Assembly: GCF_000021945.1 (NCBI RefSeq)
Contig: NC_011831.1
Span: forward strand, 2,307,353-2,371,352
Source of the DNA: Chloroflexus aggregans DSM 9485
GTDB taxonomy: Bacteria > Chloroflexota > Chloroflexia > Chloroflexales > Chloroflexaceae
Length of the DNA: 64,000 nucleotides
Direction of reading: 5' to 3'
Shown: piece by piece, positions 7,249 to 39,284 of the stretch
Layout: every line of letters begins with the position of its first letter
Numbering within the stretch: position 1 is the first letter of the stretch
Position numbers and translations under genes: made by a program
Notes under the pieces: model-generated
What the model saw: only the letters and a program-made list of their open reading frames with translations
The model's database searches: none
What the model was told of the DNA's origin: nothing

Positions 7249-8961
7249 TTACCCTCCTTGCCCTGCCCGCCGAAAATCACGTACTAACAGACGCATCCGG
7301 CGCTGACCGTTCCATTCATCGACCGCGAGTTGGTAAGCAAGGTCGACGGTGGGATGACGCTGGAGGGCAGCAGCGAAGTGACCGAAGTTAAACCCAATCG
7401 CTTCATAGACGTTAGTACCGGCGCGTACTCGCATACGCAGATGATCGCCGGTAGTGGTTGTCTGCGGATCGATCACCGTCACGTTAGGAGCCATAAACAT
7501 CGGTGTTGGATTGCAATGCCCGAACGGTTCGAGTTGTTGGATAGCGTAGTAGACATCCCACGACAGTTCATCGAGGGGTAGTTTCGCGTCGATCAGTAAC
7601 CTTGGCGTTAGAAGTTCTTCTTTCAGATACTGTTTCCCTAGCGCCAACAGGCGTTGTTCGAGCACCGGAATGTTGGCGGTATGGATGGTAAAGCCGGCTG
7701 CGGCTGTATGTCCCCCGTAGCGAACGAAGAGATCGGCACACTGATCGAGCAGCTCGATGATATTGAAACCGGGGATCGACCGTGCCGAGCCGCGTGACGT
7801 TTCGCTACCTTGTTCGATGACGACCACCGGGCGATGATAACGTTCGACCAACCGCGCAGCGACCAAACCGAGGAGACCGGCGTTAAAGTTCGGGTTGGTT
7901 AGTACGATCAAGGGGTGCTCAGCCCGACCGCTCGCATTGATTAATTCTTCGGCAATCGTCTGTAACTGACGGGTCATGCTCTGTCGCTCACGGTTGGTAG
8001 CATGCAAGTCGGCGGCAATCGCATCGGCGGTGGCCTGATCGTCGGCGAGCAACAATTCGTAGGCGCGGCGCGCATCGTCGAGCCGACCGGCAGCATTGAG
8101 GCGAGGAGCCAGACTAAAGGTAACACCTCCGCTATCGACGGCACCCGGTGTCAGACCGGCTACCGTGATCAATGAGCGCACGCCGGGTCGGTTCGTCTCG
8201 TTCAGCGCAAGTAAGCCTGCCCGTACCAATACCCGATTCTCGTCAACGAGCGGACCCATGTCGGCTATTGTTCCCAATGCAACCAAATCGAGCAAATCAC
8301 GCCCACGCAAGTGAGCCGGACGTTTTCCGTAACGGGCCAGTGCCTGCACCAATTTGAACGCAATGCCGACGCCTACCAGCCCTTTGAAAGGATACGCGCA
8401 ATCGGGTTGTTTAGGATTGATGACGGCATCAGCCGATGGCAACTCGTCTGGGGGGTGGTGATGGTCGGTCACGATCACATCCATCCCCAGTCGTTTGGCC
8501 TCGACGACTTCAGCCACGTTCGAGATACCACAATCGACGGTAATGAGCAGTCGAACACCGTCGGCAGCCAACTGACCGATTGCCACATTGTTGAGACCAT
8601 AACCTTCGCGGGCCCGGTGAGGAATGTATGGTCGGATCTTCCCTCCCATCGCCCGGATAGCCTGGGTGAGCAGCGCAACCGCCGTGACCCCATCAACATC
8701 AAAGTCGCCATAGACGGCCATGCGTTCACCGCGATCGATGGCGGTGGCGATCCGAGCTGCTGCTTCTGCCATACCACGCATGCGCAGTGGATCGTGCAAG
8801 CCGGAGGTGTAATCGGCGGCCAGAAACGCATGCGCTGCTTCCGGTTCGTGAAGCCCGCGCTGGTACAGCAGGGTCGCGAGTACGGGATGGAGGTTTAGTT
8901 GGGCGATGAACGTGGCGGGAGCCGGTGGACGTACCTCCCAGCGCTGACGGCGAGCTGACAT
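7249..8961 (-). CDS. recJ: Single-stranded-DNA exonuclease RecJ
   Basis: RecJ degrades single-stranded DNA 5' to 3' in recombination and mismatch repair. About 570 residues, typical length. The DHH-family metal motifs are clear: YGDFDVDGVTAVALL, VDCGISN, VTDHHHPP and NPKQPDC, then the DHHA1 and OB-like C-terminal part ending near the stop. The ATG at 8961 is chosen because AGGAG lies 8 nt upstream; the upstream GTG/ATG codons at 8970 and 8967 are too close to it. A TATAAT box lies upstream on the minus strand (9007-9012). mutL in this window serves a related repair process but is not linked. Confidence 0.95.
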   Translation of the reverse strand: MSARRQRWEVRPPAPATFIAQLNLHPVLATLLYQRGLHEPEAAHAFLAADYTSGLHDPLRMRGMAEAAARIATAIDRGERMAVYGDFDVDGVTAVALLTQAIRAMGGKIRPYIPHRAREGYGLNNVAIGQLAADGVRLLITVDCGISNVAEVVEAKRLGMDVIVTDHHHPPDELPSADAVINPKQPDCAYPFKGLVGVGIAFKLVQALARYGKRPAHLRGRDLLDLVALGTIADMGPLVDENRVLVRAGLLALNETNRPGVRSLITVAGLTPGAVDSGGVTFSLAPRLNAAGRLDDARRAYELLLADDQATADAIAADLHATNRERQSMTRQLQTIAEELINASGRAEHPLIVLTNPNFNAGLLGLVAARLVERYHRPVVVIEQGSETSRGSARSIPGFNIIELLDQCADLFVRYGGHTAAAGFTIHTANIPVLEQRLLALGKQYLKEELLTPRLLIDAKLPLDELSWDVYYAIQQLEPFGHCNPTPMFMAPNVTVIDPQTTTTGDHLRMRVRAGTNVYEAIGFNFGHFAAALQRHPTVDLAYQLAVDEWNGQRRMRLLVRDFRRAGQGG

Positions 8962-9006
8962 ACACATCACTCCTGTGATAGGGGCAGGGTTGAGCAGGTG
9001 GCGTTT

Positions 9007-9083: not shown

Positions 9084-9092
9084 TGCTATTAT
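9084..9092 (+). promoter_or_regulatory. Extended -10 promoter of the SBP/sensor operon
   Basis: TGC-TATTAT (TGn plus -10) predicts a start near 9099. This places the ATG at 9091 inside the promoter and supports translation from 9115. Confidence 0.5.
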
Positions 9093-9114
9093 GAAAACCG
9101 TGGAGAAGGCCAAA

Positions 9115-10188
9115 ATGTTACGCACAATATTTTCAATGCAGTTACTTCGTCGTACCGCCTGTTTGTTAATATGGCTGTTGGTCGGATGTACTGCCTCGCC
9201 ACTCCCACCGACACCAACCCCGCCATCGGTCAATTTACGGATCCTCAATCGGGCGACGTATATTGATCAACGATTGCTTGAACAGTTTACAGCCGAAACA
9301 AATATTACGATTGATTATCATACGTATAATAGTAGTGAAGAGGCGTACAGATTGCTCACAAACTCGTCCCAACCTTACGATCTGATCGTGGTCAGCGATG
9401 TCTTAGTCGAACAGTTGCGCCGTGAGGAGCTGTTGGCCGTTCTCGATCAACAACAACTCTCTTATCTCTCTCATCTTGATCCGGTGTATCGCCGAACCTA
9501 TATCGATCCGGCGTATCGCTTCTGTGTTCCCTACCTATGGCGGGTGGCCGGGTTCGGCTATAAGCTCACGAAAACCGGTCGCCCGATTACAAGTTGGGAT
9601 GATGTTTTTGACCTTCATTACAACGATAGATTGACTCTGCTCGATGATGCTCGCTCTACGCTTGGTATGGTCTTGATTAAGCTCGGCTACAGTCCTAATA
9701 CCAGCGATCCGGCGGCAATTGGGGCTGCCCGTGATTGGTTGCGTGAACGTGCTGAACAGATTACCGGTTTTGCGGCTGATAACGGTCAAGATTTACTCGC
9801 TCATGCGAGTACCGACATTGTCGTGGAATGGAGTGGTGATATCTTACAACGAGCCGCTACCGATCCGGATATTCAGTTTGAAATCCCTGCTGAAGGTTCA
9901 CTCCTCGCGACCGATAGTATGTGTATCCCGATCGATGCGCGTCACCGGTCGGCTGCCGAGCAGTTCATGAACTTTATCTTAAAGCCTGAAAACAGTGCAA
10001 TGTTGGCGAAAACTACCTACAGTAGCACACCTAATCGGACTGCGTGGTCATTGCTCGATCCTGAGCTGCGAACCCTCATGCAGGAGTATCAATCGCTCGA
10101 AAATGAGGGTCGCCTGTTTCGCCTGGTTGATGTGCCACCATCGGTATGTGAACTCTACCGAGGAGCTTGGCGTGAGGTGCAACAATGA
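9115..10188 (+). CDS. PotD-like extracellular solute-binding lipoprotein
   Basis: This is a periplasmic-type binding lipoprotein resembling the spermidine/putrescine (PotD/PotF) group of family 1 solute-binding proteins. From the ATG at 9115 a signal peptide ends in the lipobox LLVGC (Cys25), followed by a Pro/Thr linker. The body has NRATYIDQRLLEQFTAET, PYDLIVVSD, CVPYLWRVAGFGY and SWDDVFD, all PotD-style landmarks. The start has GGAGAAGG 5 nt upstream, while the ATG at 9091 lies in the probable promoter. No permease or ATPase gene is adjacent. Instead its stop overlaps the start of a membrane sensor gene by 4 nt (ATGA). This suggests it delivers ligand information to that sensor rather than feeding transport; that is inference. 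Confidence 0.85.
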   Translation: MLRTIFSMQLLRRTACLLIWLLVGCTASPLPPTPTPPSVNLRILNRATYIDQRLLEQFTAETNITIDYHTYNSSEEAYRLLTNSSQPYDLIVVSDVLVEQLRREELLAVLDQQQLSYLSHLDPVYRRTYIDPAYRFCVPYLWRVAGFGYKLTKTGRPITSWDDVFDLHYNDRLTLLDDARSTLGMVLIKLGYSPNTSDPAAIGAARDWLRERAEQITGFAADNGQDLLAHASTDIVVEWSGDILQRAATDPDIQFEIPAEGSLLATDSMCIPIDARHRSAAEQFMNFILKPENSAMLAKTTYSSTPNRTAWSLLDPELRTLMQEYQSLENEGRLFRLVDVPPSVCELYRGAWREVQQ

Positions 10189-13100
10189 CCGGATCGGTGC
10201 CAAGCTTACATCGCCGGTTGTTCGTCGGTGTTATAAGCGCAGTGGCAGGACTGTTGATCGTATCAGTAGTTGGGGTATGGTGGCAAGCCTTCTGCTACCA
10301 ACAAGCTAGCGAATATCGCCAACAGATTACTCAGGCGCGTGAGGCGGTGTTTCGATTGGAAACGACCTTCTTGAAAGCCCGTCAATTGGATCAGCAACTC
10401 ATTGATATTGCTGTTCATAACCGCAGCGTAGACCCAGCGCTCATTGTCGAGTACACCGAGGCAATGCAGGTGGTGCTTCAGGCACAGGCAACCTTGAAAT
10501 CGTTGCGAACGGCTATAGCCGAGGTTGAGCCATGGATCGGCCAGATTGAGCATCTGTTTGATCAATATCACACAACGGTCGGTCAGGTGATTGCACAAAT
10601 TGAGCAACGCCAGCGTGCTGACGGGATCGAGCCGGTCTTGTTACATAGTCGTCGTGCCCTTTGGGTAGCGCTCGCCCAGAATGGTGATGAACTGCGCGAG
10701 TTGAGTTTACGTCTTGCTCTGGATGAACAAGCGTACTTTGCGACATTACGACAAGAATATGTAGATAATGTCCGGTTACGGCTGAATCAACTGCGCATGC
10801 AATCCTCCCAATTGCCGGCTGACAATCGTGAGGTAGTGCAGCAAGGAATCGCGGCGTATGAGCAGAGTTTTTTACGTCTCGTCGATCTGAACCGTGAATT
10901 AGATCATAACGGCCTTGCGCTGCAACATTACACCAACGATATACGTGCGGCGATCCAGGGACTCATGCAAGCGATTACGGTTGCTCAACAGCGGGCCAAC
11001 GAACAGTTAAACTTTGCTTTTCAGATCGGCTACGGATTGAGTGCTTGGATGATTATCGGTAGCGTTACGATCTCTGTCGTTACGGGTTGGTTTATTAATC
11101 GCTATCTTACGCAACCGTTGGTGACATTAACGCAGGCGGCACAGCGCGTCGCAAGCGGTTGGCGTGAGACAACGATCCCTTTAGTGGGTACCGATGAGAT
11201 TGGTACACTGGCGCGAGCCGTGTATCAATTGACGGCAACCCTCAATCAGACGATTGCCGGTCTAGAGGAGCGAGTTGCACAGCGAACAGCTCAACTTCAG
11301 GCTACACTGGCCGAAAAAGAGGCGTTGCTTACCCGTGAACTTCAGCGTAATCGCCGTGACCAAACCTTAGTCGATCTTAGTCTGGCCCTGAATGGTCAGT
11401 CTACCGAAACAGCCATCTATCGCTGTTTAGTTGATACGCTGGCAACCGGCCAAGATATTGACGACCGGATCGGTATCTATACGCACGATCCAACTAGTGG
11501 TCTATGGATACCACAGGTGACGCACAACTACCAGCATTACCCGTGGTTACGACTAACTACAGCGCCAACGCTCTTTCAGGCACAGAGTAGTCCGCTCTAC
11601 ATTCCCGATCTGAGCCAGCACGTAATCGATACGCTGCCGGAAGCCCAAGGTTCGGCAGTCGTGGCGGTTATTCATGTTGACGACCAGCCCCATGCGCTCC
11701 TCGTGATCTACCGCTCAACCGCCAACGCCTTTCGTGATGATGAGATTACACGTACTGGGATTGCAGCCCGTCTTGTCGGTCAAGCAATCACACAGGTAAG
11801 ATTGGTTACCTCGTTGCGGCAGGCAAAAGAGGTAGCTGAAACCGTTAATCGTGACCGAACCACCTTTCTCGCTCGGTTTGATTACGATATCCGCAGCCCA
11901 CTCCATACGATTATTATCGTGAGCGAAACGCTGCGCGATGTGCTGCGCGATCAGCCGGCTGTCGCCGAAGATGTCGGGAAGATTACCCAAGTCGGTCGCC
12001 AATTATTAGCACGCCTAAATGTCTTACTCGACAGCGCCAAAATCGAAGCCGGTATGTTGACGTTACAGTCAGAACCGTTTGCGCTCGATACGTTGCTCGA
12101 TAATGTGGTTGATGAACTGATGCCTTTAGCGCAGCGCAATCAGAATCGCCTTGAACTGAAACGCCCTGATCATCTAGGTCTGATGGTTGCCGATCTGAAC
12201 CGTTTGCGGCAGGTCTTGTTCAACCCCTTCCGCTTTATTGTGACGATGACGCAGCGCAGTATGATCCACGTCCACGCTCGTAGGTATGTTTTCGATCAGC
12301 GTGAGTGGTTTGAAGTGACACTACGTAATAACTCATTAACGTTGTCTCCTGAGCAGGTACAGGCCCTCTTAACGCCATTTGTTATTCCACCGACCGACCT
12401 GTGTCATGGTGATGCGTGTCACGGACTAGCGTTAAGTCGTCAGTTGTGTGAATTAATGGGTGGAACGTTAGCGATCCAACCTTTGGCGCCGGGCGGTACA
12501 ATCATTACGATCCGTATTCCGATTGTCCGTTTGGATGTAGGCGAAGATGATGGTAACATCGTCTTGTCCCCTCACCGCACCCCCACCGATATTGTGGTAG
12601 TTACCGTTTATGAAGCAAGTCTGTTGCAGGCGACACTAGAAGGGGTCGGTTGGCAAGTGCAGCGTGCCACCTCGCTAGACGAGGCGATAAGTCAGTGTGC
12701 CGAACCACCAAAGGCTCTCCTTATCGATCTGCCGGTTGATCGGACTACGGTAGAAACGATGGTACGTGCTGCCGGTTGGGAAGAAACCCGTATTGTATGG
12801 CTGAGTGCTGTCGATCTCGGTGATATTGGCGTGTTACGCGCGATATGGCCGGGTGATCCAGATGAGGTGGTTCAGGTTTTGCAGACGATAATACCTCGTG
12901 TACAATCCACCAATATGACGATATTGGTGATCGAGGATGAAGCACCGACACGATTGATGATCCGGCGTTTGTTGGAAAGCGACGGTTGGTCTGTGCTAGA
13001 AGCGACTCATGGCGCCGAGGGTAGGCATCTTTGGTATACGGCACGACCGCGATTAGTGATATTAGATCTGATGTTACCCGATTGTGATGGTCTGACGATG

Positions 13101-13280
13101 TTACAGGAACTTCGTCAAGAGTTGAGCACGCCGGTGATCGTCGTGACGGCACGCCTCCTCAGCCGTGAAGAACTGGAGATTTTGGATAAGCTGCACGTTA
13201 TGGTGTTGCAAAAAGGTAGCTACCGACGGAGCGACCTTCTTACTCTCACGCGCAAGATGGCGAGTAGAACCGAGGATTGA
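10185..13280 (+). CDS. Hybrid sensor 'histidine kinase' with degenerate catalytic core and two receiver domains
   Basis: A 1031-residue membrane sensor. Order: TM1 (~12-36), a long helical extracellular domain, TM2 (~280-305), HAMP (~306-360), a coiled coil, a GAF-like domain (~395-545), HisKA-like plus ATPase-like regions (~560-785), a first receiver-like domain (~800-905) and a second receiver (~910-1020). The phosphoacceptor position reads FDYDIRSPL, so Tyr567 stands where family members have His (SHEIRTPL). The N box lacks its Asn (FNPFRFIVTM) and the DxGxG G1 box is absent (TLRNNSLTLSP), while GLALSRQLCELMGG survives. The first receiver lacks the acidic cluster. The second is intact, with EDE, the phosphorylatable Asp in LDLMLPD, VVTA and a Lys in LQKG. 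The start overlaps the upstream stop in ATGA. It is most likely a pseudokinase relay or a receiver-output protein. Confidence 0.85.
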   Translation: MTGSVPSLHRRLFVGVISAVAGLLIVSVVGVWWQAFCYQQASEYRQQITQAREAVFRLETTFLKARQLDQQLIDIAVHNRSVDPALIVEYTEAMQVVLQAQATLKSLRTAIAEVEPWIGQIEHLFDQYHTTVGQVIAQIEQRQRADGIEPVLLHSRRALWVALAQNGDELRELSLRLALDEQAYFATLRQEYVDNVRLRLNQLRMQSSQLPADNREVVQQGIAAYEQSFLRLVDLNRELDHNGLALQHYTNDIRAAIQGLMQAITVAQQRANEQLNFAFQIGYGLSAWMIIGSVTISVVTGWFINRYLTQPLVTLTQAAQRVASGWRETTIPLVGTDEIGTLARAVYQLTATLNQTIAGLEERVAQRTAQLQATLAEKEALLTRELQRNRRDQTLVDLSLALNGQSTETAIYRCLVDTLATGQDIDDRIGIYTHDPTSGLWIPQVTHNYQHYPWLRLTTAPTLFQAQSSPLYIPDLSQHVIDTLPEAQGSAVVAVIHVDDQPHALLVIYRSTANAFRDDEITRTGIAARLVGQAITQVRLVTSLRQAKEVAETVNRDRTTFLARFDYDIRSPLHTIIIVSETLRDVLRDQPAVAEDVGKITQVGRQLLARLNVLLDSAKIEAGMLTLQSEPFALDTLLDNVVDELMPLAQRNQNRLELKRPDHLGLMVADLNRLRQVLFNPFRFIVTMTQRSMIHVHARRYVFDQREWFEVTLRNNSLTLSPEQVQALLTPFVIPPTDLCHGDACHGLALSRQLCELMGGTLAIQPLAPGGTIITIRIPIVRLDVGEDDGNIVLSPHRTPTDIVVVTVYEASLLQATLEGVGWQVQRATSLDEAISQCAEPPKALLIDLPVDRTTVETMVRAAGWEETRIVWLSAVDLGDIGVLRAIWPGDPDEVVQVLQTIIPRVQSTNMTILVIEDEAPTRLMIRRLLESDGWSVLEATHGAEGRHLWYTARPRLVILDLMLPDCDGLTMLQELRQELSTPVIVVTARLLSREELEILDKLHVMVLQKGSYRRSDLLTLTRKMASRTED

Positions 13281-13368: not shown

Positions 13369-14991
13369 CTACAGGTTGCGCACGATCAAGCTCTGTCCGG
13401 TCATATCAGCCGGCGGCGTCAATTCGAGCAACTCAAGCAACGTAGGGGCAACATCGGCCAAACGCCCACCGCTGCGCAGCCGTATGGTATCTTTGCCGTA
13501 ACCGGGACCACCGATCAGAAAGCACGGAGCCGGGTTGGTGGTATGAGCGGTATGTGGTCCACCCGTTTCCGGATCGATCATCTGCTCGGCATTACCGTGA
13601 TCGGCGATCACCAGCGCAACTCCACCGCGTTCGAGAATCGCCGGTACGACCCGCGCCAAGCCGGCGTCAACCGCCTCGCACGCCTTGATAACGGCCGGAA
13701 TGCTGCCGGTATGACCAACCATATCGGGGTTGGCATAGTTGACGACAATAAAGTCATATTGATCGCTCGTGATCGCTTGTAAGAGTGCTTCGGTCACTTC
13801 AGGAGCACTCATTTCAGGCTTGAGGTCGTAAGTAGCAACTTTCGGCGACGGAATGAGCCGGCGATCTTCGCCAGGAAATGGCTCTTCGCGCCCCCCGTTC
13901 AGAAAGAAGGTAACGTGCGGATACTTCTCGGTTTCGGCAATGTGGAATTGGCGCATCCCGGCCTGGCTGATGACGGCAGCCAGCGGAGTGGTCACATACC
14001 GTGGCGGAAACGCGACGAGGACCGGCAACCCCTCTTCATACTGGGTCATCGTGACGAAGCACAGATCGTGCAGTTGGCGGTCACGCTGCCAAATCTGCGG
14101 TGGTAACGGCTGTCCTTCGGCCTTTTGCCGTTCATAGTGTTGCCGAATCCGTTCGTTGAGGTCAGGGTCGACGAACGCACGGGTCAATTGGCGACCGCGG
14201 TCGGGGCGGAAGTTGGTAAAAATGACTGCGTCACCATCGCGTACCGTTGCTACCGGTGTACCATGAGCGTCGACGATAACCGTTGGTAAGACAAACTCAT
14301 CACTGATATCGTTCGCGTAAGCAGCTTCAATCGCAGCCCGCGCCGACGTTGCTCGCTCACCGATCCCGTCAACCAAGGCTGCGTAGGCGCGTCCGGTTCG
14401 TTCCCAACGCTTGTCACGATCCATCGCGTAGTAGCGACCAGATACGGTGGCGATTACACCGACGCCGAGACGGGCGATAACCCCTTCGAGCGTGTCGAGA
14501 AAGCCAAGCGCACTGCGTGGTAGCACATCACGTCCGTCGAGGAACAGGTGCAAATAGACGCGACGTACCTGCTGGCGATGGGCTAATTCGAGGAGGGCAT
14601 GCAGATGATCTTCGTGGGCATGCACCCCACCGGGACCAAACAAGCCCATCAAGTGGAGCGCCGAATTGTGCTGCTTGACGTGTTCGATAGCTTGTAAGAA
14701 AGCGGGATTAGTGAAGAAATCACCATCGGCAATCGCTTTACTAATCCGTGTCAATTCTTGGTAGACGATAAAGCCGGCTCCGATATTGAGATGACCAACT
14801 TCAGAATTGCCGATTTGTCCTTCAGGCAAGCCAACATCCAACCCTGACGCTCCCAGCGTAGTGAATGGACACGTCGCCATCCACTCGTCTACGTGTGGTG
14901 TATCGGCCAAATCGGCTGCGTTGCCGGGTCCGGGTGGGGCAACGCCCCAGCCGTCCATAATGATTAATACCACCGGGCGTGGTCGGGTCAT
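13369..14991 (-). CDS. gpmI: 2,3-bisphosphoglycerate-independent phosphoglycerate mutase
   Basis: This enzyme interconverts 3- and 2-phosphoglycerate in glycolysis and gluconeogenesis. It is a two-metal alkaline-phosphatase-superfamily enzyme of 540 residues, slightly longer than the usual ~510. It has the metal ligand Asp13 in IMDGWG, the phospho-Ser63 in GQIGNSEVGH, GGVHAHEDHLHALLELA, FLDGRD, TNFRPDRGRQL and the C-terminal ADHGNAEQMIDPETG with HTAHTTNP. It is the last gene of a minus-strand operon that starts at about 18.3 kb and includes glcD and glcE. A link between glycolate/glycerate carbon and phosphoglycerate would make sense, but this is inference from position. Confidence 0.97.
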   Translation of the reverse strand: MTRPRPVVLIIMDGWGVAPPGPGNAADLADTPHVDEWMATCPFTTLGASGLDVGLPEGQIGNSEVGHLNIGAGFIVYQELTRISKAIADGDFFTNPAFLQAIEHVKQHNSALHLMGLFGPGGVHAHEDHLHALLELAHRQQVRRVYLHLFLDGRDVLPRSALGFLDTLEGVIARLGVGVIATVSGRYYAMDRDKRWERTGRAYAALVDGIGERATSARAAIEAAYANDISDEFVLPTVIVDAHGTPVATVRDGDAVIFTNFRPDRGRQLTRAFVDPDLNERIRQHYERQKAEGQPLPPQIWQRDRQLHDLCFVTMTQYEEGLPVLVAFPPRYVTTPLAAVISQAGMRQFHIAETEKYPHVTFFLNGGREEPFPGEDRRLIPSPKVATYDLKPEMSAPEVTEALLQAITSDQYDFIVVNYANPDMVGHTGSIPAVIKACEAVDAGLARVVPAILERGGVALVIADHGNAEQMIDPETGGPHTAHTTNPAPCFLIGGPGYGKDTIRLRSGGRLADVAPTLLELLELTPPADMTGQSLIVRNL

Positions 14992-34951: not shown

Positions 34952-37180
34952 ATGACGACCACCGACCTGCTGGCCAACCTGAACCCACAACAACAACGCG
35001 CCGTAACCACTGTTACGGGGCCGGTATTGGTGTTGGCCGGGCCGGGTAGTGGCAAAACGCGCGTTCTCACCCACCGCATCGCCTACCTGATTGACGAAGT
35101 TGGCGTTGATCCGCTTCAGATTTTGGCCGTCACCTTCACCAACAAAGCGGCCCGCGAAATGCGCGAGCGCCTGATGGCACTGCTCGGCGAAGCCATCGCC
35201 CACGACCTGACCGTCGGGACCTTCCATTCCATCTGCGCTCGCTGGCTACGCCGTGATATTGTTCATCTGGGTCGTGAACGCGATTTTGTCATCTATGACA
35301 CCGATGATCAAGAACGCCTGCTCAAACGGGTATTGCGAGAGCTAAACCTCAACGAGAAACAACATCTACCCCGTGCCATTCTCAGTGCTATTTCGCATGC
35401 CAAGAACGAGCTTGTTGATCCAGAGGAGTTTGCCCGCCACGCACGCACCTATTTCGACGAGATAGTAGCACGCTGCTACGCCCGTTATCAAGCTCTCCTC
35501 TACGAAAGTAACGCACTCGACTTTGACGATCTCCTTGGCGAGACGGTGCGTTTGTTTAGCAACTATCCGGCGGTATTGGCCGAATATCACCAACGCTACC
35601 GCTTTTTGCTGGTTGATGAATATCAAGATACCAACCGTGCGCAGTATTTGCTGGTACGCGCGTTGGCCGAACGCGACCGTAATCTGTTCGTGGTTGGTGA
35701 TGAGGCGCAGAGCATCTATGCGTGGCGCGGGGCCGATATTCGCAACATTTTGCAATTCGAGCACGATTATCCCGATGCGACGGTGATCATGCTCGAACAA
35801 AATTATCGTAGTACGCAGGCAATCCTCGACGCTGCCCAAGCGCTGATCAACGCTAGTCCACAACGTAAGTATGCAAAACGGCTCTGGACGACAAACGGAA
35901 CGGGTGATCAGGTCGTGCTGTATGAAGCAGCGAATGATGAAGACGAAGCCGCGTTCGCCGTTAGTGAAATAATGCGCCTCATTGCCGAAGGCACAGCGCG
36001 GCCCGGTGATTGTGCAATTATGTACCGAATGAACGCACAATCGCGTCTGGTAGAAGAGGCGTTAATCCAGTCACACCTCCCCTATCAAGTAATCGGTGGG
36101 GTGCGCTTCTACGAGCGTAAAGAGGTGAAAGATGTGCTTGCCTACTTACGCCTGGTCGCGAATCCCTACGACAGTGTGAGTCTGCAACGAGTGATCAATT
36201 GGCCGGGACGCGGGATTGGCGAACGCACGGTCAACGAATTACTTGTGTGGGCAACTCGGCTTGGTGTCCCACTGTATCAGGCGCTCAGTGAACTGGCCGA
36301 TGAGACGACCGAATACCCTTTTGCTGCACGCGCACGAAACGCACTGCTCGATTTTTACCGGCTCATCGGCGAATTTCACAGCCTTCGCCAACGCATGCCG
36401 CTTGGTGAACTGATCGATTACCTGTTGATGCGCATCGAAGCTCAAGCGACATTGTATCAAGAGTACGAAGCGGAGGAAGCCGAAGATCGCTGGCGCAACG
36501 TGCAAGAGTTGCGCAACGCAGCGATCAATTACGCTAATCTACCGATTGAACATCAATTAGCAGCATTTCTCGAAGATATTGCGTTGGTCGCCGATACCGA
36601 CACGCTCGACCGCAACAATGATGTGGTGACGTGCATCACCCTCCATCAGGCCAAAGGTCTTGAGTTTCCGTATGTCTTTGTGCTTGGGGTAGAAGAGGGC
36701 TTACTTCCGCACAGTCGGTCTACCAATGATCGCAACCAACTGGAAGAAGAACGACGCTTGCTCTACGTGGGAATGACGCGGGCGCAACGCCGGTTGTATC
36801 TCAGCTATGCGGCCCAACGTGCGATGTTTGGCCGTGTAACGGTTTGTTCCCGTTCTCGCTTTTTGGCCGATATTCCCCCAACGTCACTCAAACTCTTGCG
36901 CCGCCGTGGCTATCGTGCTGTGACCGTCTCCCAGACCACGATGTTCAACCAACGCATGTTGACCCCTGATCATCACGATAAGCGCACGACACCACTGCCC
37001 CTACCGCGTCAAGCTGCCTTCGTCCCCGGTCAGCGCGTCTATCACGCAACCTTTGGTGAAGGTATTGTCGTCAGTAGTCGCCTGATCGAAGGCGACGAAG
37101 AGGTAACCGTTCGCTTTGCCGACCGTGAGCGGCGGTTGCTGGCCAGCTTTGCCCGTCTCCAACCACTCACGGACGGATAA
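34952..37180 (+). CDS. pcrA: ATP-dependent DNA helicase PcrA/UvrD
   Basis: A 742-residue superfamily 1A helicase that unwinds DNA 3' to 5' in excision and mismatch repair and clears RecA. Motifs in order: Q-motif LNPQQQRAV, motif I LAGPGSGKTRVL, Ia AVTFTNKAAREMRERL, II LLVDEYQDTN (about residue 219), III VVGDEAQSIYAWRGAD, IV LEQNYRS, V ITLHQAKGLEFPYVFV and VI RLLYVGMTRAQ. The C-terminal PcrA/UvrD Tudor-like tail, VYHATFGEGIVVSS, binds RNA polymerase in homologues. It overlaps the convergent LysR gene by 14 bp at the 3' ends. Confidence 0.97.
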   Translation: MTTTDLLANLNPQQQRAVTTVTGPVLVLAGPGSGKTRVLTHRIAYLIDEVGVDPLQILAVTFTNKAAREMRERLMALLGEAIAHDLTVGTFHSICARWLRRDIVHLGRERDFVIYDTDDQERLLKRVLRELNLNEKQHLPRAILSAISHAKNELVDPEEFARHARTYFDEIVARCYARYQALLYESNALDFDDLLGETVRLFSNYPAVLAEYHQRYRFLLVDEYQDTNRAQYLLVRALAERDRNLFVVGDEAQSIYAWRGADIRNILQFEHDYPDATVIMLEQNYRSTQAILDAAQALINASPQRKYAKRLWTTNGTGDQVVLYEAANDEDEAAFAVSEIMRLIAEGTARPGDCAIMYRMNAQSRLVEEALIQSHLPYQVIGGVRFYERKEVKDVLAYLRLVANPYDSVSLQRVINWPGRGIGERTVNELLVWATRLGVPLYQALSELADETTEYPFAARARNALLDFYRLIGEFHSLRQRMPLGELIDYLLMRIEAQATLYQEYEAEEAEDRWRNVQELRNAAINYANLPIEHQLAAFLEDIALVADTDTLDRNNDVVTCITLHQAKGLEFPYVFVLGVEEGLLPHSRSTNDRNQLEEERRLLYVGMTRAQRRLYLSYAAQRAMFGRVTVCSRSRFLADIPPTSLKLLRRRGYRAVTVSQTTMFNQRMLTPDHHDKRTTPLPLPRQAAFVPGQRVYHATFGEGIVVSSRLIEGDEEVTVRFADRERRLLASFARLQPLTDG

Positions 37181-38072
37181 GCGTTCCTAGCGGACGTTGT
37201 TGCAGTTCGCTCACCAAAAACTCACGGAGCGCGCGTGCAGCAGGTGAAGCGGTGCGATCGCTCCGCCAGACCAGACCCAACGAGCGAGTCAGGGTCTGAT
37301 CGCAGATGGTCAAACTGACCACGCCATGAAAACCGGCCACTGCCAGCGCCGGCACTAGAGCAATTCCCAACCCGGCGGCGACAAATCGTACAAGTGTTTC
37401 GGTCTCGCCACCCTCCATCACTGTCTGCGGGGTAAAACCGGCATCACGGCACGCCTTCAGCGTTGCTTCGCGCAACTCATAGCTTGCCGGTGAGAGAATC
37501 CAACGTTCGTTACGCAACTCGGCCATCGCCACCTCGTTGCGCCCGGCCAGCGGGTGATGCGGGCTAACAATCAACACCAGCGGTTCATTGAGCAACGGTG
37601 TCACCGTCAACGCTTCATCGCTCACCGGCAACGCCACGACCGCCAGATCGGTCAAACCCGACTCAAGCAGATCGAGCAACGACTGAATCCCAGCCTCGTG
37701 CAAGCGCAAGGTAATCCCCGGATACCGCTGATGAAACGCCGTCAGCAGCGGCGGCAGTAAATGCGCACCGACGGTAGGTGGTGCGCCAATTGCCACTCGT
37801 CCGGCCTTCAAGCCAACTCGTTCGGCCATTGCAGCGCGTGCCTCTTCGACCTGAGCCAATACCGCTCGTGCATACGGCAACAATGCCTCACCGGCTTCGG
37901 TCAGGCGAAGGCTACGCCCCACCCGGTCGAACAGTGTAATACCCAACTCCCGTTCAAGTTGGCTAATCTGCTTGCTCAGCGCCGGCTGCGCGATGTGTAA
38001 TTCGGCCGCTGCGCGCGTCACATGTGAATGGCGGGCCACAGCCTCAAAATAACGTAAATGACGAAGTTCCAT
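37167..38072 (-). CDS. LysR-family transcriptional regulator
   Basis: A 301-residue LysR-type regulator. The N-terminal winged helix-turn-helix reads MELRHLRYFEAVARHSHVT, then RAAAELHIAQPALSKQISQLE and LFDRVGRSLRLTEAGEALL. A linker helix and a two-lobe effector-binding domain (VAIGAPPTVGAHLLPPLL, VRFVAAGLGIALVPALA) follow, CynR/CbbR-like in general pattern. It is divergent from the sensor-kinase gene. The intervening DNA carries two adjacent dyads, one with the classic T-N11-A form, so it probably regulates itself and possibly the kinase. The co-inducer is unknown. Confidence 0.95.
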   Translation of the reverse strand: MELRHLRYFEAVARHSHVTRAAAELHIAQPALSKQISQLERELGITLFDRVGRSLRLTEAGEALLPYARAVLAQVEEARAAMAERVGLKAGRVAIGAPPTVGAHLLPPLLTAFHQRYPGITLRLHEAGIQSLLDLLESGLTDLAVVALPVSDEALTVTPLLNEPLVLIVSPHHPLAGRNEVAMAELRNERWILSPASYELREATLKACRDAGFTPQTVMEGGETETLVRFVAAGLGIALVPALAVAGFHGVVSLTICDQTLTRSLGLVWRSDRTASPAARALREFLVSELQQRPLGTLIRP

Positions 38073-38106
38073 CGCAAAACCCTTTTGTTTGGAGCATCAT
38101 CCTGTA

Positions 38107-38131
38107 TGGTATCATACCAGATACGAGTATC
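38107..38131. promoter_or_regulatory. Tandem dyads, probable LysR operator
   Basis: TGGTAT-C-ATACCA (38107-38119) is a perfect dyad of the T-N11-A type. GATAC-GA-GTATC (38120-38131) follows immediately. Both lie 35-60 bp upstream of the LysR ATG. Confidence 0.6.
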
Positions 38132-38222
38132 AACGATATGCGTTGCAGCATTATCCACGAACGACTATAATCGGAACAGCAGATTCGCAGCGGAAGCGTC
38201 AGCAGCGCAGGAGAGTTCAGTC

Positions 38223-39284
38223 GTGGCAGGCGAAGAAGTTCAACAGCAGATCACTACAGCAATCCAAACGTACCGCGAAGAGATCGACCGCATTCGCCGT
38301 GAGCTTAACGAGGTTGAATCGTTGCTGCGACAAGGCATGGCTGAAGTCGACAAACTCTCGATGCGCGAAACTTCGATTGCCAATCGCGTGCGCGATCTCG
38401 ATGTCAATCTCGAACGGTACGAGAAGACCGATATCAAGACGTTTTATACCACATTGATCGAAGTGCAAATGCGCTTACAAACCATGCGGGCCCAGGTCGA
38501 GCAACTCCAAACGCGCCGCGAGACGTTACGGGACCGCCAGAGTTTAATCGGTGAGTTCGTTGAATTGCTCGAAGCAGCGGCGGCGCAATTGGAGCGCAGT
38601 GCCAAGATCGTCGATCTGCCGTTCGATCCACAGACCATGATCGCCAACATCATCCAATCGCAAGAGAGCGAACGGTTACGCATTTCCCTGCAAATGCACG
38701 ACGGCCCGGCGCAGGCAATGAGTAACCTCGTGTTGCGGGCCGAAATTTGCCAACGTCTCCTCGATCGCGATCTCGATCAAGCTCGCGCCGAATTAGTAGC
38801 GCTGAAGAATGCCGTCAATAACACGTTACAAGAGACGCGCAAATTCATCTTCGATCTGCGGCCAATGACCCTCGACGACCTTGGGCTAGTTCCAACCCTA
38901 CGTCGCTACGTTGCGCAAATCTCCGAGAAACACAAGATCGATCTAAACTTGATGATACAAAATCTTGATCAACGCCTGCCCGGTCACTACGAAGTGACGA
39001 TCTTCCGCTTCATTCAAGAAGCGATTAATAACGTAGTGCGCCATTCCGGGGCGACCCAAGCCCGGATCATGCTCGATAACAGCGATAATACCTTGCACAT
39101 CCTGATTGAGGATAACGGCAGTGGCTTTGCCGTGCAAGACGCGATTGCCAGCGCTGGCACGCGCAAGAATATGGGTTTGGCCAACATGCGCCAGCAGATC
39201 GAGGTCTTGCTCCAAGGCGAGTTCGGCATCGAGAGCACGATCGGGCGGGGAACGCGGGTCGCAGCGACGATTCCGTTGCCGTAA
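38223..39284 (+). CDS. DegS/NarL-partner type cytosolic sensor histidine kinase
   Basis: A 353-residue kinase without membrane segments. A long N-terminal coiled coil (about 1-135) is followed by HisKA_3 with the phosphoacceptor His159 in LQMHDGPAQAMSNL and by a HATPase domain (FRFIQEAINNVVRHSGATQ, LIEDNGSGF, GLANMRQQIEVLLQGEFGIES). All catalytic boxes look intact, in contrast to the degenerate sensor at 10.2 kb. The GTG at 38223 is chosen because AGGAGAG lies 7 nt upstream; the frame extends to 38058 but that part crosses the LysR operator region. No response regulator gene is adjacent, so it is an orphan in this window. Confidence 0.9.
   Translation: MAGEEVQQQITTAIQTYREEIDRIRRELNEVESLLRQGMAEVDKLSMRETSIANRVRDLDVNLERYEKTDIKTFYTTLIEVQMRLQTMRAQVEQLQTRRETLRDRQSLIGEFVELLEAAAAQLERSAKIVDLPFDPQTMIANIIQSQESERLRISLQMHDGPAQAMSNLVLRAEICQRLLDRDLDQARAELVALKNAVNNTLQETRKFIFDLRPMTLDDLGLVPTLRRYVAQISEKHKIDLNLMIQNLDQRLPGHYEVTIFRFIQEAINNVVRHSGATQARIMLDNSDNTLHILIEDNGSGFAVQDAIASAGTRKNMGLANMRQQIEVLLQGEFGIESTIGRGTRVAATIPLP

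Follow-up and report, generated by a model that had tools for sequence, protein, structure and literature searches.

What use does a bacterium have for a hybrid sensor histidine kinase that has lost its catalytic residues? The question is raised by a gene of Chloroflexus aggregans DSM 9485 at positions 10185–13280 (plus strand) of a 64,000-nucleotide stretch of DNA, the window, which covers 2307353–2371352 of the single 4,684,931-base contig of the genome. The gene encodes 1031 residues and follows a gene for a solute-binding lipoprotein (SBP). A preliminary description, made from the sequence alone, had proposed a pseudokinase that uses or sequesters phosphate on its last receiver. Judging from sequence and gene position, the protein is a degenerate descendant of an SBP-coupled canonical hybrid kinase, as represented by a syntenic orthologue. 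It appears unable to use ATP or to carry phosphate on the usual histidine, and its last domain still looks phosphate-competent. Since the first two functions are apparently lost and the last receiver is apparently live, the protein would probably interfere with another kinase. We tentatively regard it as a kinase-dead component in a network of several kinases, acting on another, active kinase in the manner of RetS.

Domains and catalytic residues

The reading frame starts with ATG and is uninterrupted over 1031 codons, as the preliminary description had stated. All features below lie on the plus strand. A periplasmic sensor (residues about 33–285, 10281–11039) is followed by a HAMP domain (residues 303–348, 11091–11228; Pfam 41.0 bits) and by a GAF-like domain delimited by alignment (residues about 396–535, 11370–11789). 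The latter had no Pfam match in the window protein, a weak GAF_2 match in the orthologues of G010, G012, and G011, and a clear match in that of G040. The HisKA-like dimerisation helices (residues 545–625, 11817–12059) scored 23.1 bits over 558–623, below the cut-off of 26.9, and the HATPase_c-like domain (residues 630–782, 12072–12530) scored 33.0 bits over 670–780, above the cut-off of 26.4. Two receivers close the chain: pseudo-receiver 1 (residues 796–905, 12570–12899), with a VpsR-type match over 798–877 (30.8 bits), and receiver 2 (residues 911–1025, 12915–13259), with a Response_reg match over 913–1010 (63.6 bits).

Alignment with canonical orthologues placed Tyr567 (11883–11885) of the H box, FDYDIRSPL, in the His column, where the preliminary description had seen it. 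Next to it, D568 replaces Glu and S571 replaces Thr/Asn, giving YDxxS versus HDxxN; Thr or Asn in the S571 column serves phosphatase activity. The N-box Asn reported as missing is the Mg-binding one, now F684 (12234–12236), though the first Asn of the box (N680) is retained. The absence of DxGxG was also correct: G1 reads NNSLT (715–719), with N715 (12327–12329), S717, and T719 in place of D, G, and G. G2 reads GDACHG (742–747, 12408–12425); G742 and G747 are retained, and D743 and C745 replace two glycines. The ATP lid is two residues short. Receiver 1, described earlier as lacking its acidic cluster, indeed shows no acid pair where the alignment would put it. Its Thr is replaced by Ser and its Lys by Trp, so that one of five active-site residues is kept, the phospho-Asp D848. 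All five are found in receiver 2 (E917, D918, D961 at 13065–13067, T988, and K1010), in agreement with its description as intact.

With every ATP-site box damaged and the His gone, the pseudokinase reading held at the level of sequence. Judged by its His, N, G1, and G2 boxes, the protein is not a canonical hybrid kinase. A homologous core (HATPase_c above its cut-off, HisKA sub-threshold) combined with missing ATP and His residues would class it as a pseudo-histidine kinase.

Orthologues at the same locus

The genus was sampled through eight genomes, including that of the window. Seven have a readable orthologue; the contig of G009 breaks off at the SBP gene. The SBP/kinase pair adjoins recJ in all seven readable loci, and also in G009, and gpmI in six of the seven, gpmI not being found in the downstream stretch of G006. 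These flanking genes (in the window, 7249–8970 and 13369–14991, both minus strand) we take to be recJ and gpmI, having recognised them ourselves and not with a tool. The kinase start overlaps the upstream SBP stop by four bases as ATGA in the window, and ATGA or GTGA coupling is likewise seen in G006, G007, G008, G010, and G012.

Canonical orthologues occupy the same locus in relatives. G033 and G036, from another genus of the same family, have an upstream SBP and a kinase in which every box and both receivers are present. Further canonical orthologues from that genus are found in G034 and in G032, where the contig ends; in G034, no more than about 150 bases separate recJ from the kinase, too few for an SBP gene. 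The kinases of G003, G039, and G040, located beside recJ and/or gpmI, have canonical cores, a shorter sensor, and one receiver or none, and no SBP was found beside them. The sole receiver of the G039 kinase (L043 1086–3734) has Gly in the phospho-Asp column. Because canonical orthologues stand at the same locus, the direction of change runs from canonical to degenerate.

The genus copies share a first set of losses. In all seven, Phe stands in the column of the Mg-binding Asn, G1 lacks its second Gly, part of G2 has disappeared, and receiver 1 is without its acid pair and has its Lys replaced by Trp. The active site of receiver 2 is complete in all seven. The G1 Asp is missing only from the window copy (present in 6/7). 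Five copies retain the His (G006, G007, G008, G010, and G012), with the motifs HDVRN, HDIRN, and HDIRQ. The window copy reads YDIRS with Tyr (TAC) and that of G011 reads QVVRH with Gln (CAG), both codons being one base away from a His codon. By these sequences, the loss of the ATP site is older than that of the His. The preliminary description had proposed to check Tyr567 in orthologues; the outcome alters the picture, as the Tyr is private to the window species.

In a recJ+gpmI tree, the window grouped with G007/G010/G012 at 82/93 and not with G011, with support below the star threshold. The kinase tree did not resolve the placement of the window versus G011, and single-gene trees left both unplaced. 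Because the recJ+gpmI tree sets the window apart from G011, we favor two separate His losses as the probable course.

A conserved His elsewhere in the dimerisation helix, which the preliminary description had named as evidence against its reading, was looked for among the seven genus orthologues, and none was found. We therefore rejected a conserved replacement: a His at +7 is private to the window and one at +4 is private to G011. The former, His574 (11904–11906), seven residues past Tyr567, is probably a chance occurrence.

Other kinases of the genome

The genome has 80 HATPase_c places. Besides that of the window, 54 gave a row with the local HisKA/HATPase model; the remaining 25 gave no row at E 1e-3 and were excluded from the counts. 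The H column was unfilled in 7 of the 54 rows, and the N and G1 columns in 2. His is present in 46 of the 47 filled H columns, the Mg-binding Asn and the G1 Asp each in 52/52, and the middle G2 Gly in 51/54. The window protein misses all four together, and none of the genome's other readable kinases shows the full set of losses. Against the same model, 41 of the 54 rows score below the window protein. These lower-scoring rows retain the boxes wherever filled, and chance or an alignment artefact was rejected on this ground. With the N-box Asn and the G1 Asp still in place in these rows, the loss of the boxes in the window protein is not mere general divergence.

The exception in the H column is L131 (G000:C1:596700–599300, minus strand), a second kinase of the genome without the His. 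It has a HAMP–PAS–HisKA–HATPase_c arrangement and Gln at the His position (TVAQELRFLL), with the N box and G1 Asp retained and G2 altered. A published survey across bacteria gives 0.9% of HisKA domains (722 of 76,471) as lacking the His (PMC12632262), so this loss is rare but known.

Sensor, binding protein, and structural models

Of the relatives that a search yielded, a single one, C. islandicus, was close; the 79 others were distant, with about 22–37% identity to the window protein for those aligned. The full-length model was built from a 32-row alignment, of which 30 rows were distant kinases, mostly canonical by consensus, in addition to C. islandicus. Its ATPase-like domain and receivers were mostly well modelled (blocks 79–96), the lid reached 66–76, and the lid, the linkers, and HAMP were poor (predicted template modelling score, pTM, 0.39). 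Solved kinases close to the model were RetS, the closest (Z = 22.7 over 217 residues), ZraS (21.0), DivL (20.6 over 223 residues), and ETR1 (19.9). RetS sequences were also among the best PDB matches to the window kinase.

The sensor was modelled with AlphaFold2 from two sequences as one all-helical domain (predicted local distance difference test score, pLDDT, 87.8). Structural alignment over 209 residues ranked McpS (Z = 15.8, 2.6 Å) and TorS (Z = 14.6, 3.1 Å) near the top; a designed bundle also reached Z = 15.9, over 136 residues only. Foldseek returned no match under E 1e-3, McpS being best at 1.2e-3. The case for a predicted McpS/TorS-like fold is good, not certain. TorS works with the binding protein TorT. 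The predicted sensor fold, the hybrid kinase, and the adjacent binding-protein gene of the window would resemble that pair. By sequence, however, the adjacent SBP is PotD-like (SBP_bac_8) and not of the TorT type, the window kinase looks dead, and the TorS model scored 143.9 bits against a cut-off of 676.5.

The SBP (365 residues; 9091–10188, plus strand) matched SBP_bac_8 with 82.5 bits and, at E 2.6e-48, PotD chains in the PDB. Its score against the PotD equivalog model (173.8 bits) was below the cut-off of 582. By eye, its N-terminus shows a lipobox-like LLVGC. The positions that we take to be polyamine contacts differ in part, with W changed to R at the first. SBP_bac_8 proteins of P. aeruginosa predicted to bind spermidine/putrescine are reported to have bound GABA or 5-aminovalerate (PMC11113362). 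On these two grounds, we dropped a polyamine ligand and claim none.

Constraint on the gene

Values of omega were calculated by NG86 for the pairs among G007, G010, and G012, with the flanking genes as reference. The whole kinase gave 0.16–0.25, compared with 0.03–0.06 for gpmI and 0.06–0.11 for recJ. Constraint was strongest in the dimerisation helices (0.02–0.10). The other domains yielded 0.13–0.23 (sensor), 0.30–0.33 (GAF-like), 0.15–0.24 (ATPase-like), 0.14–0.36 (pseudo-receiver 1), and 0.17–0.22 (receiver 2). For a canonical paralogue, the G007–G012 pair gave 0.07 in the helices and 0.09 in the ATPase domain. Since all three genomes keep the His, these values do not measure the state of the window copy, and omega of the window's own branch is not measurable because synonymous divergence (dS) is saturated. 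In simulated neutral drift, 0.2 substitutions per site introduced about 15 stops, and none of 200 runs remained stop-free.

By these sequence measures, constraint on the gene is real but weak. The preliminary description had held that selection maintains the gene. The open frame and the omega values support this, while the weakness relative to the flanking genes (0.03–0.11) and a stop in one orthologue limit it. The codon use, described earlier as normal, is near normal and not identical to that of the neighbors: the third-position GC content (GC3) is 0.52 versus 0.545–0.60 in five neighbors, and the correlation of relative synonymous codon usage (RSCU) is 0.76, with 0.62–0.89 for the neighbors.

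Proposed mode of action and its alternatives

RetS has the domain order HisKA, degenerate HATPase_c, receiver 1, and receiver 2, as does the window protein. On sequence, both would combine a HATPase_c without G boxes with a live-looking last receiver, and RetS of P. aeruginosa is also closest in fold. The sensor of RetS is 7TMR-DISM, whereas the window protein has no 7TMR-DISM Pfam match and its sensor is predicted as an all-helical single domain; the adjacent SBP of the window locus is a further difference. The H box of RetS carries HExxT (PMC5992135), compared with YDIRS in the window. The same source describes RetS as having a degenerate HATPase without G boxes, as not autophosphorylating, and as accepting phosphate on its second receiver from GacS; it further removes phosphate from the receiver of GacS, whose autophosphorylation it inhibits. 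Dependence on another kinase is reported for an evolved ChrS pseudokinase, which needs phosphotransfer from HrrS (PMC9491836). Subfamily II of the plant ethylene receptors shares a sensor, a GAF domain, a degenerate kinase domain, and, in some isoforms, a receiver, but these proteins are eukaryotic, have an unrelated sensor, and are reported to show ser/thr kinase activity in vitro (PMC4730734).

In the RetS-like mechanism, the lipoprotein SBP would bind a small ligand and dock on the TorS-like sensor, and the signal would reach the dimerisation helices by way of HAMP and GAF. The window protein would not autophosphorylate. It would draw the phosphoryl group of another kinase onto D961 as a phosphate sink and/or form an inhibitory heteromer, and its helices and receiver 2 would suffice for both. 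For relatives that still have the His, an additional role of the helix as phosphatase or phosphotransferase is conceivable, and the genus form with HDxRN would have the parts for all three RetS activities (sink, dephosphorylation, and inhibition). In the window species, with YDxxS for HDxxN, the phosphatase or phosphotransferase role would be gone or weakened.

Several points weigh against this mechanism. No partner kinase or phosphate donor was found for receiver 2, no systematic partner search having been made; Hpt domains occur at four places in the genome, none of them tied to this locus. The phosphate use or sequestration proposed in the preliminary description fits the residues of the last receiver and has a direct precedent in RetS (PMC5992135), but no donor for it was identified. 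The link between SBP and sensor is a putative one, drawn from adjacency; two adjacent SBP–sensor pairs of P. aeruginosa are reported to have shown no interaction (PMC11113362). The structural model is blind to a closed versus an open ATP pocket because its alignment is mostly of canonical kinases. Catalytic residues were lost no more than other invariant positions (6/16 versus 42/89 kept, p 0.59), and a targeted loss was left unsupported. The G006 kinase (L038 4383–7499) is split by one TAA at codon 247, both halves being otherwise open. The SBP leader of G007 (L035 7567–8671) has a stop and a frame change. The SBP gene is missing in G011 (L037 7388–7983), where the gap between recJ and the kinase is 596 bases with one doubtful 24-residue match.

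The last three breaks fit a system in decay, in which the signal has become dispensable to the genus, the SBP/kinase pair is lost piecemeal, and the window copy, far advanced in this process, retains little or no function. We consider this unlikely, yet serious. It would also account for kinase omega values that are two- to sixfold those of the flanking genes, for the equal loss of catalytic and other invariant positions, and for the identity of the window copy to that of G010 (helices just 62%, ATPase-like domain 52%, versus 93% and 86% between the canonical paralogue and its G007 counterpart). However, the frame is open in six of seven orthologues over saturated dS; no neutral simulation preserved an open frame; every domain omega is below 0.4 in the close relatives, and receiver 2 has a complete active site in all seven orthologues. 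To us, the balance suggests a gene used for an ATP-independent purpose, weakly constrained, and being lost in some lineages.

The dead core might instead work as DivL of Caulobacter does, binding the phosphorylated receiver of another protein and relaying its state to a partner kinase, with receiver 2 secondary. DivL also has Tyr for His in a histidine kinase-like core, is among the close structures, and is described as lacking kinase and phosphatase activity and binding DivK~P (PMC4211667). But the Tyr occurs in only one of seven genus orthologues, the window protein differs from DivL in its sensor and in having receivers, and a complete receiver 2 would be unneeded, which makes this improbable. 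Less probable again is a phosphotransferase of the PhyT (PhyP), Spo0B, or ChpT type that still relays phosphate, in the window species through His574 or another residue. These proteins have a degenerate ATPase-like domain, and the five relatives with a His and a lost ATP site fit the pattern described for them (PMC5898713, PMC3433190). The window protein, however, has receivers and lacks the canonical His on which such proteins depend, and neither His574 nor the +4 His of G011 is conserved; a stray His nearby is easily due to chance. A still-active kinase with unusual motifs is very improbable, since HATPase_c above its cut-off and a predicted fold that is kept face the joint loss of the His, the Mg-binding Asn, G1, and half of G2, with a shortened lid.

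Elsewhere in the window (37167–39284), a LysR-type regulator gene is divergent to a HisKA_3/DegS-like kinase gene, an ordinary arrangement. Among the titles and abstract openings of the literature on Chloroflexus aggregans histidine kinases and on Chloroflexus two-component systems or polyamines, no paper concerned the gene studied here, which is no proof of absence.

Significance

With rather less assurance than for the RetS-like action itself, we propose that the locus records, in living species, the passage from a ligand-gated hybrid kinase to a kinase-free regulator. The canonical form would have lost its ATP site and receiver 1 while keeping the His (RetS/PhyT-like), and the His would then have been lost twice. 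The end product would be an SBP-gated receiver that serves as a drain or a block on another kinase, with the catalytic residues of the receiver alone left, and RetS-like control of one kinase by another would have arisen separately in Chloroflexota.

Pseudo-histidine kinases are a known kind of protein, of which few are understood, and the main interest of this locus is its ordered decay series. Canonical, half-dead, and fully dead orthologues occupy one gene position in related bacteria, and closely matched proteins are therefore available for testing what each loss does. From such a series one would learn whether a dead kinase stays useful by virtue of its attached receiver alone.

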